This document shows, in pieces, positions 4,701 through 30,670 of a stretch of 64,000 nucleotides of DNA. The stretch spans positions 1 to 64,000 of the IMG/VR virus record IMGVR_UViG_3300046313_000683. One strand, given 5' to 3'. The stretch comes from a virus. Position 1 is the stretch's first letter. Each line of letters starts with the position of its first letter. The notes under the pieces are model-generated. The model ran no database searches. It saw only the letters and a list, made by a program, of their open reading frames with translations, and was not told the DNA's origin. Made by a program: the position numbers and the translations under genes.

Positions 4701-5189
4701 TTACATTAGAAAGTCGGCAAGTGCCATATTTTTCAAGTACTTCTGGTAACTATCATTTGGAGAAACGAGAATCCATTTGCCAGGAGATACTTCTGTGCAT
4801 AGTAACTGGTGTTTCCCTAGTACTGGGTGGAAGAATGTACGGGACTGATCGAAATCAATCACACGATACCCCGTTTCGGTAACAGTATGGTGCTTCGGAC
4901 CAACAACAAATAACTTGAAACTTGTATTCGTTAAATCATGCACCCTGATGGTATCGATTGATCCTGTCATCTTATCACATACGATTACAAACCAGTCTAC
5001 TGGTAGCGTTAGTGTTGTCTTGCCAACTGCAATAGTCAATGCAGAGGACTGCAGCTCGATTACTACGGATAAGGATGAACAAAAATAGTCCTGCTGACGT
5101 AGATCGTAGTTCCAAAAGCCTTCCAGCTTTTTGATGTCGGCAGTGGTCAGCGCTGGTTTCCCAATGTCGCTAATGTCGATTAAATTCAT
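4701..5189 (-). CDS. hypothetical protein
   Basis: 162 residues, mostly alternating beta-type segments, no membrane helix, no recognisable catalytic motif. It overlaps the upstream 62-residue gene by 4 nt (ATGA) and is part of the uvsW-led operon. Confidence 0.6.
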   Translation of the reverse strand: MNLIDISDIGKPALTTADIKKLEGFWNYDLRQQDYFCSSLSVVIELQSSALTIAVGKTTLTLPVDWFVIVCDKMTGSIDTIRVHDLTNTSFKLFVVGPKHHTVTETGYRVIDFDQSRTFFHPVLGKHQLLCTEVSPGKWILVSPNDSYQKYLKNMALADFLM

Positions 5190-23794: not shown

Positions 23795-24079
23795 TCAACT
23801 CAAATCTTCACACACAATCAGCATGGGGCTGGCGAGAAATACATCGACGTTGTCGCAGTGATCATCTGTAGTTGCACAAACCTCAATTTTAACTGTTTCG
23901 AATGCATCAAGTTCACCACACTGAGCAAACGCCTCTAGCAGTTCGAATGCTGCTTCACTGGCAGCAGTACCATCGCCAAGACGGGTGTGTGATAGCAAGC
24001 TCTCAATTAGAGCAGCTTGCACTAGCGTCATTCCTTTGATGGATACGGTTTGTTTCTCAATATTAGCTTTGACTTTCAT
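23795..24079 (-). CDS. hypothetical protein
   Basis: 94 residues, mixed alpha/beta, acidic C terminus. Lies directly after the metallophosphoesterase gene in the same direction. No motif recognised. Confidence 0.5.
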   Translation of the reverse strand: MKVKANIEKQTVSIKGMTLVQAALIESLLSHTRLGDGTAASEAAFELLEAFAQCGELDAFETVKIEVCATTDDHCDNVDVFLASPMLIVCEDLS

Positions 24080-24092
24080 ATTTTACTCCTGG

Positions 24093-24911
24093 TTAAATTT
24101 CAATAAACATACACGGAATGTGGTTGTTATACTTGTTGCCCCATTCCCCGCGGTATCCGCATGGGTTAGCGACGTATAGGATACCGTCCTTCACAAACTC
24201 TTGGTGGTCATGTGTGTGACCAAAAATCCACATATTGGGTGCGCAGTTGGGTTCAACAATGTCATCACAGTTATTAACAAACGCACCATTTACAGTACTC
24301 GTGCGAAAACGCATGGACACAGCATCATATGTTGGCAAGTGGTGTGTCACAACGATCACCTTATCTTCGTTGGCACGAGCAAGTTCGTTTCGAATCAACT
24401 GACGATGCTCGCCAGAAATCCTACGCATGTACGCTGGTGTCATACGATAATCATCCCGACCGTGCTCACGAACACGAATGTATTCAAAGTCTGCAATACC
24501 ACGCTGAATATCTTGATTGTAGTCAGGTCTGTGGCTGCATTCGCCCCAGAGTGTACCTGCGATAAACTTTACACCATCTATGACGAATGACTTGACATCA
24601 TTCCCAGGACACAGCGTATTCTGTACTCCATACTTACGAAACTGTTCAAACATTTGATCTGGTAGATCATTGTATACGTGGTGATACATCTCGTGGTTTC
24701 CGAACACGTAGATTACCTTAATGAAGCGGTCTTCCAGTTGTTTGATAAACTGTGCTGCTTGGTTTGGTCTGCTAGAAATATCACCTGCCAATACAAGCAC
24801 GCTCTCGCTATCCCGCTCATCAACAGGAATGAAGTTGTCAACGAGTTTAGCAGCTGGCGTGCCATAAAAGCCTTCTAAGTGAGTATCGCTGCTAATACGA
24901 ATGAATTTCAT
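24093..24911 (-). CDS. metallophosphoesterase
   Basis: About 273 residues from ATG 24911 (MKFIRISSDTHLE), where ATGA overlaps the upstream stop; the longer frame to 24938 is unlikely. All five family blocks are present: SSDTHLE (DxH), LAGDIS (GD), FGNHEMY (GNHE), VVTHHLPT and FGHTHDH (GHxH). It is a calcineurin-like phosphoesterase probably acting on a phosphate ester or nucleotide; substrate unknown. Pairing with an RNA ligase nearby allows an RNA end-repair role, but that is speculation. Confidence 0.85.
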   Translation of the reverse strand: MKFIRISSDTHLEGFYGTPAAKLVDNFIPVDERDSESVLVLAGDISSRPNQAAQFIKQLEDRFIKVIYVFGNHEMYHHVYNDLPDQMFEQFRKYGVQNTLCPGNDVKSFVIDGVKFIAGTLWGECSHRPDYNQDIQRGIADFEYIRVREHGRDDYRMTPAYMRRISGEHRQLIRNELARANEDKVIVVTHHLPTYDAVSMRFRTSTVNGAFVNNCDDIVEPNCAPNMWIFGHTHDHQEFVKDGILYVANPCGYRGEWGNKYNNHIPCMFIEI

Positions 24912-25210
24912 GGTTCGAGAATAGTTGAGGTCAGCCATTTATCACGGCTATCGGTAAATTGTTCCAGCGTCATGCCTGGTTGTTCGGTAGATTGCATAAT
25001 CTTGACGATATCTGCATCTTCTTTCACACTATACACATTAGACACATTGGTGCCAACATGCCGTTGGAAGTAATTTATCGGACACTCATCCTGAGCTCGC
25101 TGCGCAGCTTGTTCAGCACTATCCGCCCGAACGAGTGTCACATTACGAAAGACTACGATTTCTTCGACAGCATACAGATTCTCATGACTTGGGGTCAAGA
25201 TGTTATCCAT
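24908..25210 (-). CDS. hypothetical protein
   Basis: 100 residues, alpha/beta, with an AEQAAQRAQDECP helix. Overlaps both neighbours by a few bases (ATGA downstream). Not recognised. Confidence 0.55.
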   Translation of the reverse strand: MDNILTPSHENLYAVEEIVVFRNVTLVRADSAEQAAQRAQDECPINYFQRHVGTNVSNVYSVKEDADIVKIMQSTEQPGMTLEQFTDSRDKWLTSTILEP

Positions 25211-25805
25211 TTTTTGATTCCTTTTCCATCATGTGTTGCTTTCCTTGCCTCAAGCAGCGACGATTGCTGCGTTCCATTAACAGTTCTGGTGTAGTACCAT
25301 CTTCCAAATCTTCATACATTGGGAACTGACGGTAATATCTACCATCAGCAAATTCAACACCAGCGGTGTGACCAAGAATGTTATACACACTGTACAAATT
25401 ATCCCACTCACCTGTTGGCGCAGTACGAGCACCTTTCGTGCGTACTTTTGGTAGATTTACATTACCACTTTCAATTTTCCGCATTGTAGTGACACGACGG
25501 ATTGCACGCTTAATGTGACCAATAATCACATTACGTAGCAGTTGAGAGATGAACTTACCCTCCACAACATCAGTACCTAGTTCAATCAAAGTTGCGTCAA
25601 TTCGCAATAGTCGCAATAAATTTGCAGCGACGTGCGCCGACATGTGTCCATCTGCAACAGCGTGCTCAATTTCATTGACGTTCGTGTTAAACGTACGAAT
25701 ACGATTACTGCAACTCTTCATTGCACCTGGGTTGCGTTCGTTGATGATTCGTGTCAAATACTGACCAGCTGGAGTATTTGAAAACGTATTTAAGTCGTAG
25801 CTCAT
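25203..25805 (-). CDS. hypothetical helical protein
   Basis: 200 residues, mostly helical, rich in Arg (RNVIIGHIKRAIRRVTTMRK), with a basic C-terminal tail. Could bind nucleic acid, but no family motif is visible. Confidence 0.55.
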   Translation of the reverse strand: MSYDLNTFSNTPAGQYLTRIINERNPGAMKSCSNRIRTFNTNVNEIEHAVADGHMSAHVAANLLRLLRIDATLIELGTDVVEGKFISQLLRNVIIGHIKRAIRRVTTMRKIESGNVNLPKVRTKGARTAPTGEWDNLYSVYNILGHTAGVEFADGRYYRQFPMYEDLEDGTTPELLMERSNRRCLRQGKQHMMEKESKNG

Positions 25806-25834
25806 AAGTGATCCAAAATAGCTAGTATCAATTT

Positions 25835-26050
25835 TTATTGTGAAGGTGGCAAATCAATCTGTGGTTCGGGTGCTGAATCTGATTGTGGTGCAGACTCAGC
25901 CCACCCAACGCGCCATTCGTATGCTTTAGCGATCGACTCAACTGACATTCCGTGCTGCTGTGCAAACTGTTCTGCTACAGCACGATTGGGCGCATACTGC
26001 ACCACATCACCGGTTGGGTTCTTGATCAAATATCCTGCAAATCGATACAT
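25835..26050 (-). CDS. small hypothetical protein
   Basis: 71 residues; starts MYRFAGYLIKNPTGDVVQYAPNRAVAEQFAQQHG. Start ATG overlaps the MazG-like stop by one base. Unknown. Confidence 0.5.
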   Translation of the reverse strand: MYRFAGYLIKNPTGDVVQYAPNRAVAEQFAQQHGMSVESIAKAYEWRVGWAESAPQSDSAPEPQIDLPPSQ

Positions 26051-26385
26051 TACATTTTACCTTTGAAATAATTTGCAACATTGGGGGCCCACCACTGTAT
26101 CTTGAGGGATTTTTTAAATCGTGCGACTTCGATAGCATCACGGTCTAACACTTTGTTATCAACAAGAATGCTGATCAGACACAACAAATCACCAACCTCA
26201 GTCTCCAGTTGTTGACGACTTGATTGCGTACTTCCCCAACCATCATCGAGTCCAAATCGCTTGACTTTGGATATCGCTTGAATGACTTCTGCACATTCTT
26301 CGGTTACCATGTCAAGTGTATCACGAAGATCGCTTGGATTCCCCTCTAGTGATGTCGGTTCTATCAACGTGATTTCAGATGTCAT
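26050..26385 (-). CDS. MazG-like nucleotide pyrophosphohydrolase
   Basis: 111 residues. The all-alpha NTP-PPase pattern is present: TEECAEVIQAISKVKRFG (ExxE) and LETEVGDLLCLISILVD (ExxD). These enzymes hydrolyse NTPs or dNTPs to monophosphates; phage versions have been proposed to adjust nucleotide or alarmone pools. It overlaps the RNA ligase C-terminal gene by 4 nt. Confidence 0.8.
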   Translation of the reverse strand: MTSEITLIEPTSLEGNPSDLRDTLDMVTEECAEVIQAISKVKRFGLDDGWGSTQSSRQQLETEVGDLLCLISILVDNKVLDRDAIEVARFKKSLKIQWWAPNVANYFKGKM

Positions 26386-26915
26386 AGGAATTTCCCCAAT
26401 ATCTTACATTGTAGGTTGATGTCTAATTGGCTGAAAGTATGACGAGCTCCACTATGCAGTGCCCGAGTCTTAAACAGCAGTGGAGCAAGAGGAGTATCCT
26501 TTACTGCTAGCGCAAAGTCTTTTTGAGTCGGTAGATCGTGAGTAGCCTCGACCAGTTGGTCAGCTTCAGTGAGTAATATTTCAAGTGCTTGCTCGATAGG
26601 TGCCACATATTCAGAAAATTCTGCGAAGTATGTTAGCAGCTCGGCTTGTTCGTTTTTAAGTACTAATTCCATCAACTTACCTTGTGATGGAATTCCATTT
26701 CCTCGCAGGTGGTGGACAGCAACATACACCGAACTCTTGATTTTTAACCGACGGCCAGATTTGTTATCGTATACAACGAACCCCTCTTGTAGTCTTGGTA
26801 GATCATTGGCTAACTTTACCAACGCCGCACCATCTGTAGCAGCATACGTAAACGGCAATCGAATATTCATTCCCTGTTGCTGCAATTGAGCGCAGATTTG
26901 AGGTAAGGTTTTCAT
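26382..26915 (-). CDS. rnlA: RNA ligase (T4 Rnl1 type), C-terminal part
   Basis: 177 residues from ATG 26915 (MKTLPQICAQL); the extension to 26975 lies in the inserted homing gene. QEGFVVYDN (motif IV) and KIKSSVYVAVH (motif V) are Rnl1 active-site motifs, followed by the helical C-terminal domain. The matching N-terminal part is at 27813-28421. Together they add up to 379 residues against 374 in T4 Rnl1. An opposite-strand GIY-YIG gene separates them. Whether the two parts assemble is unknown; no strong ribosome site is seen before this ATG. Confidence 0.85.
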   Translation of the reverse strand: MKTLPQICAQLQQQGMNIRLPFTYAATDGAALVKLANDLPRLQEGFVVYDNKSGRRLKIKSSVYVAVHHLRGNGIPSQGKLMELVLKNEQAELLTYFAEFSEYVAPIEQALEILLTEADQLVEATHDLPTQKDFALAVKDTPLAPLLFKTRALHSGARHTFSQLDINLQCKILGKFL

Positions 26916-26920
26916 TTTAG

Positions 26921-26928
26921 TATAAATA
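26921..26928 (+). promoter_or_regulatory. late promoter of GIY-YIG homing gene
   Basis: Perfect TATAAATA on the plus strand 35 bases upstream of ATG 26963. Confidence 0.75.
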
Positions 26929-26962
26929 GTCCATAACAATGCAATTATAAGGACAGCAATAA

Positions 26963-27871
26963 GTGTCAACAACATTCGTACCGACTTTTTTATACATCAA
27001 GCAGCACACAAAAACTGGAAAACTGTACTTCGGTAAAACAATAAAAGATCCAGAGAAATATGTTGGGTCGGGAGTTCATTGGAAACGACACATCGCAAAG
27101 CACGGAAAGAAGTTTGTTGCAACGCTGTGGTATTGTTTATTTTTAGACGAAAAATCATTGACAGAGTTTGCCATGAATTTCTCTATACAAGAAGACATTG
27201 TTGAATCCACTCTGTGGGCAAACCAAATATTAGAAAATGGGATAGATGGTGGATCTACTCCAGGCGTTGGGAATGGAGTTTTTGGAAAAAAGTTCCCAAA
27301 CCGCGTATACACCACGACGGAAGAGCTACGAGCACTGCGGTCTAAAAATAGAAAAGAACATGTCGCAAAGCATGGTGTCAAACAATTAACACCAGAGCAA
27401 CGAGAATTAAAGTCGATTAAAATGAAAGAACAGTTTGCTAATGGAACCCGTAGTCCTTTTGGGAAGTGTGGAGCTGAACATCCTATGTTCGGGAAGCATC
27501 ATACAGAAGAGCACAAGCAACGAATGAGTGAAAGATTCTCTGGAGAGAATAATCCAAATTACGGGAAGCATACTTCAGATGAAGTAAAGCAACGCTGGTT
27601 AGATAGTGGGCGAAATACTGGAGAGAAAAACGGTAACTACGGAAAGAGAGGAGAAAAACATCACTCATATGGTAAAAAAATATCGGCAGCAATCGTAGAA
27701 GCAAGAGCAGCATTAGTTCGAGGAACAAAACGGCCATTAGTTAAATGTCCGTTTTGTGAAAAACTTGGTGGCGACAGTGTAATGAAACGATGGCACTTCG
27801 ATAATTGCAAACTTAATTTAACAAAAGTTCCGCTCCAGTCTGATTGTGCACCACAGCCAATAATACCATAA
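26963..27871 (+). CDS. GIY-YIG homing endonuclease with NUMOD3 repeats
   Basis: 302 residues on the plus strand. N-terminal nuclease: FLYIKQHTKTGKLYFGKT and YVGSGVHWKRHIAKHG, a GIY-YIG variant as in the Seg/F-type enzymes. The middle has repeated NUMOD3-like motifs (HPMFGKHHTEEHKQRMSE; NPNYGKHTSDEVKQR; NGNYGKRG), which bind DNA. The C terminus has a Cys2His-type finger (CPFCEKLG...HFDNC). It splits the rnl1 gene and carries its own late promoter. Such insertions are known to split essential T4-like genes (for example nrdA in phage Aeh1). Confidence 0.85.
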   Translation: MSTTFVPTFLYIKQHTKTGKLYFGKTIKDPEKYVGSGVHWKRHIAKHGKKFVATLWYCLFLDEKSLTEFAMNFSIQEDIVESTLWANQILENGIDGGSTPGVGNGVFGKKFPNRVYTTTEELRALRSKNRKEHVAKHGVKQLTPEQRELKSIKMKEQFANGTRSPFGKCGAEHPMFGKHHTEEHKQRMSERFSGENNPNYGKHTSDEVKQRWLDSGRNTGEKNGNYGKRGEKHHSYGKKISAAIVEARAALVRGTKRPLVKCPFCEKLGGDSVMKRWHFDNCKLNLTKVPLQSDCAPQPIIP

Positions 27872-28421
27872 AATTATCAGAATATGGTGTAACAATTCTG
27901 TTTGCCATTCCACAAAACTCCATCACGTATGTGTAGTCTTGAGAAAACCCACTCATACATGACTGGAATTGAGACTCATTTAGTTGCATTGCTTTTAAGA
28001 TCCAATCATAAAATGTCCCACCAGCTGCTGTTAATGAAAATCCGAAACTCCCTTCTGCATAGAGCATTCCACGAGTACCGATGATCCATTTGTTATCGAC
28101 AGGTGACCAAGACACCATTACTAGTGATCCATCGGCTTTTTCATATACTGAACAATCTGAAAAATCAAACAATTTGGTATCCCCCTCGCCAAAATTATAA
28201 AATCTATTGAACGAACGAGATATAACAACAGACGAGTTGTCAGGTAATATCTGCAGTACTAATCCTCTACACTCATCACAAATTGGGTGATACTTTGGAG
28301 AATCAATTTGGCTGTAATTAAGCTTTACATACCCATTTTCGTATTTCTTAATATCAATGCTAAACTGTTCCGACAAAGAGTCGAGACCATTAGTAGCAAT
28401 AAATTTCTGTACATTTAACAT
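27813..28421 (-). CDS. rnlA: RNA ligase (T4 Rnl1 type), N-terminal part
   Basis: 202 residues. Contains SRSFNRFYNFGEG, the nucleotidyl-transfer lysine motif YEKADGSL (KxDG), and motif III/IIIa YVMEFCGMANRIVTPY. It ends shortly after, overlapping the 3' end of the inserted homing gene by 59 bp. The lysine is adenylated in T4 Rnl1, which heals tRNAs cut by host anticodon nucleases. The rest of the enzyme is encoded at 26382-26915. Confidence 0.87.
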   Translation of the reverse strand: MLNVQKFIATNGLDSLSEQFSIDIKKYENGYVKLNYSQIDSPKYHPICDECRGLVLQILPDNSSVVISRSFNRFYNFGEGDTKLFDFSDCSVYEKADGSLVMVSWSPVDNKWIIGTRGMLYAEGSFGFSLTAAGGTFYDWILKAMQLNESQFQSCMSGFSQDYTYVMEFCGMANRIVTPYSDNFMVLLAVVHNQTGAELLLN

Positions 28422-28487
28422 ATTACTTCTTTAAAACAATTAGAGAAACACTCACACAGAGTATGAGTGCTATTGGGATTGTGATGG

Positions 28488-28955
28488 TCACGCTACTTCT
28501 TTCAACTTTGCATCAATTTCGGTATAAAATTGCATGTATTTTGCAACCCGAGCGATGTCTTTTTCACTGACACCTTTCAACCGACGAATGTCGCTATTGT
28601 GCATTAGGTCTTTTTGTTTTACTCGCATCGCATCCACATTTCCAAACACCCCAGCTTTGTACTCTTCATAAGTCTGACCGCGTTGTTTTGTCAACGCACG
28701 AACCCCGTCGATAACTCGTTCGCTCATCCCTGCTGCTCGCAGATCTGCGTATGTAACATCCGTATCTTCTATGGTGTCGTGCAGAGCAGCAATGGATTTC
28801 AATTCAAGATCATCAGACCGAAGTTTGTGCATCACAGCAAGCACATGCAAAATGTAGGGATTTCCACCTTTGTCGAATTGACTAGCGTGTGCGTTTGTAG
28901 CGATTACAATAGCATCGTTGAGCATTTTTGCAAACATCTTATTTGTGGTAGACAT
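28488..28955 (-). CDS. HD-domain alarmone hydrolase-like protein
   Basis: 155 residues. The pattern matches the (p)ppGpp hydrolase HD family: HASQFDKGGNPYILHVLAVM, AALHDTIEDTDVTYADL (HD plus ED), VRALTKQRGQTYEEY and KQKDLMHNSDIRRL. Small stand-alone members degrade (p)ppGpp or related nucleotides. A phage copy could blunt the stringent response or nucleotide-based defence. A strong sigma70 promoter precedes it. Confidence 0.78.
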   Translation of the reverse strand: MSTTNKMFAKMLNDAIVIATNAHASQFDKGGNPYILHVLAVMHKLRSDDLELKSIAALHDTIEDTDVTYADLRAAGMSERVIDGVRALTKQRGQTYEEYKAGVFGNVDAMRVKQKDLMHNSDIRRLKGVSEKDIARVAKYMQFYTEIDAKLKEVA

Positions 28956-28979
28956 ATCGATTTCTCCTTAGATGCCCCT

Positions 28980-29007
28980 ATTATCCACAAAATAAGGAAA
29001 AGGTCAA
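28980..29007 (-). promoter_or_regulatory. sigma70 promoter
   Basis: TTGACC, 16-base spacer, GATAAT on the minus strand, 24 bases upstream of the HD-domain gene; AAGGAG-like ribosome site follows. Confidence 0.8.
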
Positions 29008-29010
29008 CAG

Positions 29011-29205
29011 TTAGAGTTCGCGAAATCCACCCTTACGAGTGTATGTGCCTACTTTTACTCCATTATGAGTCACACTGAAGCGAGCGTTACCCAACCATAT
29101 TAAACCAAGTAGTGCAACCACACCGAATAGTGCAAAGATGCTGTACAACCACACTGTAGCAAATGCAACAAAAGCAATGGCAGCAACTGCAGTTAGTGCA
29201 ACCAC
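29011..29205 (-). CDS. small membrane protein
   Basis: 64 residues: one or two hydrophobic helices (residues ~3-42) followed by a short soluble tail. Probably in the inner membrane. Not recognised. Confidence 0.55.
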   Translation of the reverse strand: MVALTAVAAIAFVAFATVWLYSIFALFGVVALLGLIWLGNARFSVTHNGVKVGTYTRKGGFREL

Positions 29206-29243
29206 TTCGAGAATAGTAATAAACAGTTTAGACTTTCAGGTTG

Positions 29244-29492
29244 TTAAAATTCGTTAGATGGGATGCAGTGGAGAAGTTCTTTTTTGTGGCGATTAAACAA
29301 ATATTCATCAAACCAGTATACAATCGCTTTTTCTACTGCTGCCGAGTCACTCATGTGTTCGGCATACTCGAGTATCGTGGACGCAATCTGATCATATTCG
29401 TCCTCCATATCTGAGTTAACATTGCAGCAAGTACCCATTGGGTCAGCATCGTGTAAAAGTCGCGAAAGTTCTTTCACGTTGGCGTGCATCAT
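29244..29492 (-). CDS. small protein, paralogue of 29860-30108
   Basis: 82 residues: ELSRLLHDADPMGTCCN, EDEYDQIA, and VYWFDEYLFNRHKKELL. The same positions occur in the gene at 29860-30108, so the two are a tandem duplication flanking one other gene. Unknown function. Confidence 0.6.
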   Translation of the reverse strand: MMHANVKELSRLLHDADPMGTCCNVNSDMEDEYDQIASTILEYAEHMSDSAAVEKAIVYWFDEYLFNRHKKELLHCIPSNEF

Positions 29493-29884
29493 TAATCGAT
29501 TTCAATCATTATAGGTGCGACACCCTCGATAAATACTTTTTTAGTATCAGGTCGAGCCCAGTCGTGTCCCGGGTCGAGAATTGTTACAATTCGCAACTGT
29601 GGGGCTGCGAAGTCAATATTACAAATCGCACCGCGATTTAAACCCTTGGAAAAAAACATATACAAGCCAGACCGAGTGATCCGCTGTAGTGGAGATTTTA
29701 AGCGCTTGACTATTCGCGCAATGAGTTCATCAATTTGGTGCTCAGCAGAGCGCTCGACATTACGCTCTAAACCGTGGCCTGATTTAACAATTTGCCAACC
29801 ATCGACAGTGTTGACAGCAGCGCTTTGTCCGGGTGTGTAGTTTGCGGCAGATAAATCGTTTAGGGCTTCTTGTAATATAGACAT
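29492..29884 (-). CDS. conserved phage protein
   Basis: 130 residues with FFSKGLNRGAICNIDF and LRIVTILDPGHDWARPDTKKV, a pattern recurring in phage genomes with unknown role. Start overlaps the next upstream gene by 25 nt; stop/start one-base overlap downstream. Confidence 0.6.
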   Translation of the reverse strand: MSILQEALNDLSAANYTPGQSAAVNTVDGWQIVKSGHGLERNVERSAEHQIDELIARIVKRLKSPLQRITRSGLYMFFSKGLNRGAICNIDFAAPQLRIVTILDPGHDWARPDTKKVFIEGVAPIMIEID

Positions 29885-30108
29885 TTTAGAATATCATCCT
29901 TGTGATAATTATACAGATATTCATCAAACCAGTCGATGATTGATTTTTTCAACGCTTCCTCATTGCTCATGGTAGCAGATAACTGAATTGCATACCCAGC
30001 AATCTTCTCATACTCATTCTCCATTCCTGGATTACCCCAACATGATGTATGCATCGGGTCTATTTCCCACATGATACGAGAGAGTTCTTGGATGGTATGT
30101 GCGATCAT
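29860..30108 (-). CDS. small protein, paralogue of 29244-29492
   Basis: 82 residues: ELSRIMWEIDPMHTSCWGN, ENEYEKIA, IDWFDEYLYNYHKDDIL. Homologous over its length to the neighbour at 29244-29492. A sigma70 promoter lies directly upstream. Confidence 0.6.
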   Translation of the reverse strand: MIAHTIQELSRIMWEIDPMHTSCWGNPGMENEYEKIAGYAIQLSATMSNEEALKKSIIDWFDEYLYNYHKDDILKCLYYKKP

Positions 30109-30140
30109 AATCAGGGTCTATTTTGGTTGCGATACTGTAT

Positions 30141-30168
30141 ATTGTATACCTATTTAGCAAAAAGTCAA
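30141..30168 (-). promoter_or_regulatory. sigma70 promoter
   Basis: TTGACT, 16-base spacer, TACAAT (minus strand), upstream of the gene at 29860-30108. Confidence 0.75.
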
Positions 30169-30383
30169 CAATCAAACTCACATTCTTGCATACCATTTAA
30201 CTCAACTTCCAGTGCGGCGTTGAGGATAGCAGCTTGCTGCTGTGCATCCAACTTATTGTTAGCGGGTGCAACTTTGCTACCAAAGCGGTTTCCGTAACCA
30301 TCATCGTAGGTCCACTCAACTACTTTCCACTCTGCAAGACGATCGTCATCCCCACAGTCAAATACTGCTTCAAAGCGTGCCAT
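30165..30383 (-). CDS. small acidic hypothetical protein
   Basis: 72 residues; KVVEWTYDDGYGNRFG and an acidic C terminus. Preceded by a near-perfect promoter and an AGGAG ribosome site. Unknown. Confidence 0.55.
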   Translation of the reverse strand: MARFEAVFDCGDDDRLAEWKVVEWTYDDGYGNRFGSKVAPANNKLDAQQQAAILNAALEVELNGMQECEFDC

Positions 30384-30414
30384 CTTGAACTCCTATTTGT
30401 TTGTCAATAGGGTT

Positions 30415-30443
30415 ATTATACCCTATTTAATCAAAAAGGTCAA
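30415..30443 (-). promoter_or_regulatory. consensus sigma70 promoter
   Basis: TTGACC, 17-base spacer, TATAAT on the minus strand, ahead of the gene at 30165-30383. One of the best promoter matches in the window. Confidence 0.88.
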
Positions 30444-30670
30444 CTACTAAATGCTACCACTACACCTAGTACAATCATGGAACTAACAAAGACACTGCTT
30501 CCCAAACACATCAGCATTCCAAGACCTTTGTCTGAAATCCAAGATACATACCGCTCTGTCTGAGTCTGCATATCAGCCGCTAATTGCTGATTGCGTCGTT
30601 CGATTGCAGCATTCCGTATTGGGCAGTTACGACCTTGAGTGCAGTTTCCGAAATCATCACAACAGTTCAT
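30440..30670 (-). CDS. small membrane protein with Cys-rich start
   Basis: 76 residues: CCDDFGNCTQGRNCPIR at the N terminus and one hydrophobic helix at the C terminus (LGMLMCLGSSVFVSSMIVLG). This layout, a Cys cluster then a membrane helix, is common among small phage proteins. Confidence 0.55.
   Translation of the reverse strand: MNCCDDFGNCTQGRNCPIRNAAIERRNQQLAADMQTQTERYVSWISDKGLGMLMCLGSSVFVSSMIVLGVVVAFSS

Follow-up and report, generated by a model that had tools for sequence, protein, structure and literature searches.

The ligase locus

The window analysed here is a stretch of 64,000 nucleotides, positions 1 to 64,000 of the 109,810-base IMG/VR virus record IMGVR_UViG_3300046313_000683. 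An RNA ligase is encoded in it by two open reading frames (ORFs) on the minus strand, 897 nt apart, and not as a single polypeptide as in T4 Rnl1-type enzymes. A homing endonuclease gene (HEG) lies between the two frames on the plus strand. The locus contains the following features.

26050–26385, minus strand: MazG-like pyrophosphohydrolase directly downstream of the C-half; its start overlaps the C-half stop (ATGA)
26382–26915, minus strand: C-half of the RNA ligase, 177 aa (PHROG profile, ORF list)
26916–27812: span between the halves, the inserted cassette, 897 nt, edges within a few bases
26921–26928, plus strand: TATAAATA, late-promoter-like element of the HEG, found at the same place in the related locus L021
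26949–26953, plus strand: AAGGA, ribosome-binding site of the HEG (duplex −5.9 kcal/mol)
26963–27871, plus strand: free-standing HEG with a GIY-YIG-like N-terminus and NUMOD3 repeats, 302 aa, GTG start (Pfam, PHROG)
27813–28421, minus strand: N-half of the RNA ligase, 202 aa, ATG start (Pfam, PHROG, ORF list)
28488–28955, minus strand: metal-dependent (HD) phosphohydrolase upstream of the N-half (PHROG)

The N-half matches the Pfam family RNA_lig_T4_1 (E = 1.8e-12) and positions 18–190 of the PHROG 562 profile ‘RNA ligase’ (E = 5e-26). The C-half matches positions 230–334 of the same PHROG profile (E = 2e-11); searched alone against Pfam, it gave no ligase match. Motif I K95-x-D-G (K95, D97, G98) and the motif III glutamate E168 are found in the N-half, motif IV E44-G45, motif V K58-x-K60 and the C-terminal domain in the C-half. 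ORFs, profiles and residues agree with the sequence-only reading of this DNA, which had placed motifs I–IIIa in 27813–28421 and motifs IV–V with the C-terminal domain in 26382–26915. Its statement that nothing was lost also holds: the summed length is 202 + 177 = 379 aa, compared to 373 aa in the intact relatives L017 and L018 and to the 375-residue chain of T4 Rnl1 (2c5u), and codon-by-codon comparison shows that the linker is not shortened in the window, its pieces having about the length of the L017/L018 linker. The N-half ends in a TAA stop at the insert junction, and the reading frame of the C-half is open further, up to the ATG at 26975.

A redundant split copy beside a second ligase was considered and rejected, given that the profile search found neither a second PHROG 562 match nor any other ligase-family match in the 109,810-base record. 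An HD phosphohydrolase gene with identical annotation is located upstream of the intact ligase in Vibrio phage vB_CoeS_P1. Between the HD phosphohydrolase and the N-half of the window, a 22-codon frame with a GTG start (28422–28490, minus strand) was noticed by eye; its predicted product is the hydrophobic peptide MTITIPIALILCVSVSLIVLKK.

In Rnl1-Pnkp tRNA repair operons a kinase adjoins the ligase. Such a neighbour was not found in the record of the window, possibly a fragment, and tblastn with the kinases of relatives found no polynucleotide kinase anywhere in its 109,810 bases, the record being possibly incomplete. ORFs resembling polynucleotide kinase (by eye) directly follow the ligase in the related loci L021, L202 and L420, similar ORFs (also by eye) lie near it in L017, L019 and L020, and annotated kinases are present in five phage records.

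The inserted gene

The product of the HEG matches Pfam NUMOD3 in two stretches (E = 9e-16) and the PHROG homing endonuclease families with E = 2.6e-13 and 2.5e-12, whereas its match to Pfam GIY-YIG (E = 0.016, 15.9 bits) is under the cut-off of 22.6 bits. No further NUMOD3 match was found in the 109,810-base record. The 3’-end of the HEG is antisense to the N-half over 59 nt, and its start is 48 nt from the ATG of the C-half. The octamer TATAAATA occurs in the record twice on the plus and six times on the minus strand, with about ten occurrences expected from base composition. It was therefore rejected as a genome-wide late-promoter signal, and since its frequency in the record is about that of chance, assignment of the HEG promoter rests on its position and its recurrence in L021. 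The sequence-only reading had put a GIY-YIG gene with a late promoter between the halves. The HEG is indeed in place, with NUMOD3 and PHROG matches; the assignment to GIY-YIG is weaker and the promoter is supported by position and by L021, not by octamer frequency. A hairpin masking the ribosome-binding site of the window HEG was also tried and rejected, as shuffled sequences fold equally well (z = −0.13).

Intact and split relatives

The window and 404 further loci contained 328 N-domain matches. In 319 of these the same ORF also contained the C-domain; of the remaining nine, seven were split and two showed just the N-domain. The matches include many duplicate contigs and represent 141 distinct N-domain sequences; 138 distinct intact proteins were used for the analysis of conservation and for the tree. 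The window accounts for one of the seven split matches, L021 for three and L093 for two; the last is L089, which has a nonsense codon and no insert. We left out of the counts L089 (nonsense codon only; L079 and L080 are intact), L348 and L349 (N-part joined to unrelated sequence), L421 (frameshift without an insert) and duplicate contigs. The FastTree tree comprises the 138 intact and four split ligases, with L412–L419 omitted. In L348 (3489–4331) and in L349 the sequence fused in frame to the ligase N-part is unrelated and lies close to an ORF that by eye resembles type I restriction genes; the fusion may be a chimera or a relic.

In L017 and L018, the nearest relatives found, a single ORF of 373 aa encodes the ligase. 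The N-half of the window is 60% identical to L017 and 59% to L018; for the C-half the values are 51% and 54%, respectively. The locus L021 (IMGVR_UViG_3300002026_000158) repeats the arrangement of the window: N-half, opposite-strand HEG, C-half. Its HEG is 45% identical to the window HEG in the same place and is preceded by TATAAATA and a ribosome-binding site; at the junctions there is a stop on the N side and an ATG on the C side. L202, a near relative from the same metagenome as L021, has an uninterrupted gene, with DNA identity of 84% and 80% on the two sides. L202 thus serves as the empty site for L021, while for the window this role falls to the intact sisters L017 and L018, only 59–60% identical in the N-half. 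The comparison with HEG-free relatives proposed in the sequence-only reading could be made with these one-ORF homologues and the empty site. Since L021 shares the arrangement and its near relative L202 has an uninterrupted gene, the split is not a quirk of assembly.

Two further splits have a sense-strand insert. In L093 a different GIY-YIG gene occupies the same linker, and its product has no significant similarity to the window HEG. The frame of this endonuclease is broken by a frameshift at 4957–4964, due to a sequencing fault or to decay. A scan of bacterial and archaeal genome contigs yielded seven relatives; by profile search L415–L419 are intact, L421 has a frameshift without an insert, and L420 is the fourth split, with a sense-strand gene that resembles the L093 endonuclease (by eye) and runs in frame into the C-half. 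At L420:3130–4341 a fused endonuclease/C-half protein is thus possible, besides internal initiation at ATG 3823.

On the tree the sister of the window is intact L017 plus L018 (support 0.995) and that of L021 is intact L202 (1.0); L093 pairs with intact L347 (0.917), and L420 falls within intact L070, L010 and L006 (0.992). As each split ligase has intact nearest relatives, the tree suggests four separate insertions into the same linker. This is the simplest reading of these sequences, the alternative being repeated precise loss.

Three apparent signals were not retained. Cultured phages Comrade, Beuffert and Thunderclap were examined because other genes overlap or adjoin the match; the ligase is annotated as one gene in all three; N and C profiles fall in one ORF in Comrade and Beuffert, and only the N profile passed in Thunderclap. 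The motif [IL]C..L heading the C-half was seen in 3/3 splits then known and in 0/138 intact ligases. It is given no weight, since it was picked by eye post hoc and is missing in the fourth split, L420. Finally, the identity of L021 to L202 drops around the insert, with both dN and dS higher there; co-conversion of the flanks is not claimed, because synonymous divergence varies in a mosaic fashion over the full length of the gene.

Conservation and evolutionary rates

Twenty-one alignment columns are at least 95% conserved among the 138 intact ligases. All 21 residues are kept in the window (N-half 12, C-half 9), among them K95, D97, G98 and E168 of the N-half and E44, G45, K58 and K60 of the C-half, and the same 21 positions are retained in all four splits (window, L021, L093, L420). 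The motif I KxDG lysine and the motif III glutamate are present in 138/138 intact relatives.

For L021 compared to L202, dN/dS equals 0.103 in the N-half (193 codons) and 0.090 in the C-half (179 codons); these low values may in part be older than the split. Relative-rate counts for the C-half of L021 versus L202 with four outgroups (1 v 2, 2 v 2, 1 v 4 and 3 v 2) show no excess. For the window, rate comparisons rest on distant relatives only. Its C-half has somewhat more changes than that of L018 (28 v 15 and 32 v 17 with outgroups L019 and L020, χ2 = 3.9 and 4.6; 18 v 12 with L202), but is not clearly faster than that of L017 (26 v 20, 28 v 20 and 16 v 14). No rate excess was observed in the N-half, and relaxation of the window C-half is mild at most. 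Between L420 and intact L010 synonymous sites are saturated, and the two share 74% of their amino acids over the N-half and 51% over the C-half; the C-half of L420 being more diverged, it gives no argument for constraint there.

Predicted initiation of the C-half

The anti-Shine–Dalgarno duplex at the start of the C-half is −3.0 kcal/mol in the window, +1.6 (no duplex) in L021 and −6.8 (strong) in L093; in L420 GAGG lies upstream of the C-half ATG. Compared to 1317 chance ATGs the window value is unremarkable, ranking between their third and fourth deciles. Judged from these sequences, the start of the C-half is the weak link of the two-piece reading in the window and in L021. We prefer ATG 26915 to ATG 26975, since the former is aligned with the start in L021, whereas the 20 additional residues of the longer form, which L021 lacks, are read antisense to the promoter and start of the HEG. 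These residues, MLLTLIAVLIIALLWTIYTK (26916–26975, minus strand), resemble a membrane helix, probably by chance for the same two reasons. A σ70 promoter for the C-half was rejected: the scan gave 7 sites versus 7.7 expected, none of them at the C-half start. Translation of the C-half and mazG may be coupled, given the overlap of the C-half stop with the mazG start.

Position of the split in the fold

Aligned to T4 Rnl1 (2c5u), the nearest solved structure by sequence, the N-half covers residues 46–189 and the C-half profile covers 227–302, so that the split falls in the segment 190–226. In the model of intact L017 (mean pLDDT 93.8) it lies in the loop between strand 183–191 and helix 201–209. 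The top Foldseek matches of this model in the PDB are three structures of T4 Rnl1 (E from 4e-18 to 3e-16). The C-half of the window modelled alone has a mean pLDDT of 94.0 and begins with the helix that follows the split loop. In these models the split crosses the nucleotidyltransferase domain, leaving the AMP-accepting lysine and motifs IV/V on different chains. As the N-half has the AMP-taking lysine and the C-half has motifs IV/V, neither half should adenylylate alone; by analogy with the known chemistry of the family, each would need the other.

Probable origin and function of the two-piece ligase

We consider it probable, on the sequence evidence, that the locus encodes a functional two-piece RNA ligase derived from an HEG-split Rnl1 gene, its halves being predicted to assemble. 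A GIY-YIG-like/NUMOD3 HEG would have homed, in antisense orientation, into the surface loop between motifs IIIa and IV of an Rnl1-type ligase made as one chain. The cassette would supply the stop of the N-half and the ATG of the C-half with all ligase residues kept. Both polypeptides would then be made separately from the minus-strand operon, the C-half from ATG 26915, and would reassemble into one nucleotidyltransferase fold with RNA ligase activity, presumably for the repair of cut tRNA. The idea of a gene in pieces that still works, put forward in the sequence-only reading, is supported by the one-ORF homologues, the empty site in L202, the retention of 21/21 positions, the C-half dN/dS in L021/L202 and the three further splits. 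The broader proposal that the motif IIIa–IV linker has repeatedly served as a homing site, with at least four entries by at least two unrelated GIY-YIG lineages in either orientation and each entry leaving a working two-piece ligase, seems to us slightly better than evenly balanced. The L420 version would perhaps consist of an endonuclease/C-half fusion and an internally started C-half.

Where hosts leave tRNA uncut, Rnl1 is dispensable. The HEG could thus have knocked out the ligase, with both halves now decaying and the loss tolerated in such hosts. The poor initiation signals of the C-half in the window and L021, the mild excess of changes in the window C-half relative to L018 and the failure to find a kinase in the window's record fit such decay. 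We nevertheless consider it unlikely, as the frames are open over 202 and 177 codons, all near-invariant positions are retained in 4/4 splits, dN/dS of the L021/L202 C-half is 0.09, and a kinase-like ORF still adjoins the split ligase in L021 and L420. It is highly improbable that only the N-half matters, for instance as an AMP- or RNA-binding protein beside a silent C-half: motifs IV/V, of little use without motif I, are retained in all four splits, and dN/dS of the C-half equals that of the N-half in L021/L202, even though the N-half is better conserved and the start of the C-half is weak.

Restoration of one chain by removal of the insert, as a spliced intron or through a split intein, has precedents in phages, namely the spliced tape measure gene of ICP1 and the fractured genes with split inteins in work cited in the consulted portion of PMC10448857. 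Here we give it scarcely any credence. A group I or II intron was rejected after the search of positions 24000–30500 against Rfam, which gave no match up to E = 1; moreover, there is no space for a ribozyme outside the HEG frame, because the HEG and the N-half share 59 nt and the HEG start is separated from the C-half ATG by 48 nt. A split intein was rejected as well, since neither half has an intein match in Pfam up to E = 0.1 or residues outside the ligase homology.

Comparison with known split genes

MobE of Aeromonas phage Aeh1 is of the HNH type. The splitting of Aeh1 NrdA by MobE was reportedly described by Friedrich et al. in 2007. Genes split by HEGs are a kind already known: the portion of the phage HEG review used here (Edgell et al., PMC2988022) lists mobE/nrdA, mobA/gene 60 and seg43/gene 43, and reports activity both for split NrdA and for the co-purifying pair of gene 43 products. 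In the same portion, RNA ligase is not mentioned among HEG-split genes. The parallel with Aeh1 NrdA, drawn already in the sequence-only reading, appears apt by analogy: in both cases an HEG lies inside an enzyme gene and two polypeptides replace one (PMC2988022, same portion). The two systems differ in that the Aeh1 enzyme is known to be active (PMC2988022, as above), whereas the window ligase is known from its sequence; in the enzyme concerned; in the window HEG being GIY-YIG-like/NUMOD3 and antisense to the gene that it splits; and in the ligase linker having been entered about four times by two HEG lineages. T4 topoisomerase gene 60/mobA and gene 43/seg43 of Aeromonas phage 25 likewise combine HEG-associated splitting with reassembly of the parts, in other genes; for gene 43, it is described as hard to tell if the HEG caused the split (both in that portion of PMC2988022).

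Structures of T4 Rnl1 (2c5u, 5tt6, 9do4) show the same fold and motifs in one chain. According to the consulted part of PMC2988022, T4 HEGs share the orientation of their neighbours except for segD, which in its opposite orientation is like the window HEG. Unlike the latter, segD leaves all genes whole, lying between genes 23 and 24, and no promoter of its own has been identified.

Our search of the open-access literature found no split or two-part RNA ligase. These searches also retrieved no published case of an RNA ligase among HEG-split genes, of an antisense insert with a late promoter, or of one linker entered repeatedly by two HEG lineages. RNA ligase joins the few genes known as cut by homing endonucleases, and the recurrence raises testable questions of why this loop is entered and whether the ligase works in two parts. 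If it does, the core sheet of a nucleotidyltransferase would have been cut repeatedly in nature and still work, and such an enzyme, split by nature, would offer a proven site at which to cut an RNA ligase so that its activity requires the joining of two parts.

A putative hairpin leader of homing endonuclease genes

In several relatives of the window HEG, TATAAATA upstream of the gene is followed by a hairpin of about 40 nt. This leader consists of TATAAATA and a two-stem hairpin (..GTAGTTCRCG..AACTACTCTAR..) and precedes GIY-YIG and HNH genes by about 20 nt. The window HEG is without it, and it was not found elsewhere in the window's record. Scanning viral contigs for the pattern gave at least 120 stretches, for example:

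L422:6152–6199, minus strand
L168:2944–2989
L112:2923 and L112:5143
L115, L120, L132, L021 (two places) and others

In the loci examined there were 121 elements, and an ORF of at least 50 aa starts within 60 nt of 110 of them, at 18–25 nt in 97/110. Among the 85 distinct downstream ORFs, 56 match PHROG 314 and 35 match PHROG 655 (both homing endonucleases; the families overlap), while Pfam matches include NUMOD3 (37), HNH (16) and GIY-YIG (10), again with overlap. The leader had no Rfam match at the gathering threshold in 12 loci, where only tRNAs were found, nor any up to E = 1 around one element. Forty elements were aligned, taken from the 101 distinct ones among the matches listed; 98.7% of cells pair, and both-side changes are observed in 9/10 pairs. 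Only stem 2, with both-side changes in 12, 21 and 8 sequences at three pairs, provides independent evidence of covariation, because the search either demanded stem 1 or kept it fixed. From these sequence patterns, late-expressed homing endonucleases whose folds are unrelated seem to share this element as a leader, and it may be a mobile one that serves their expression.
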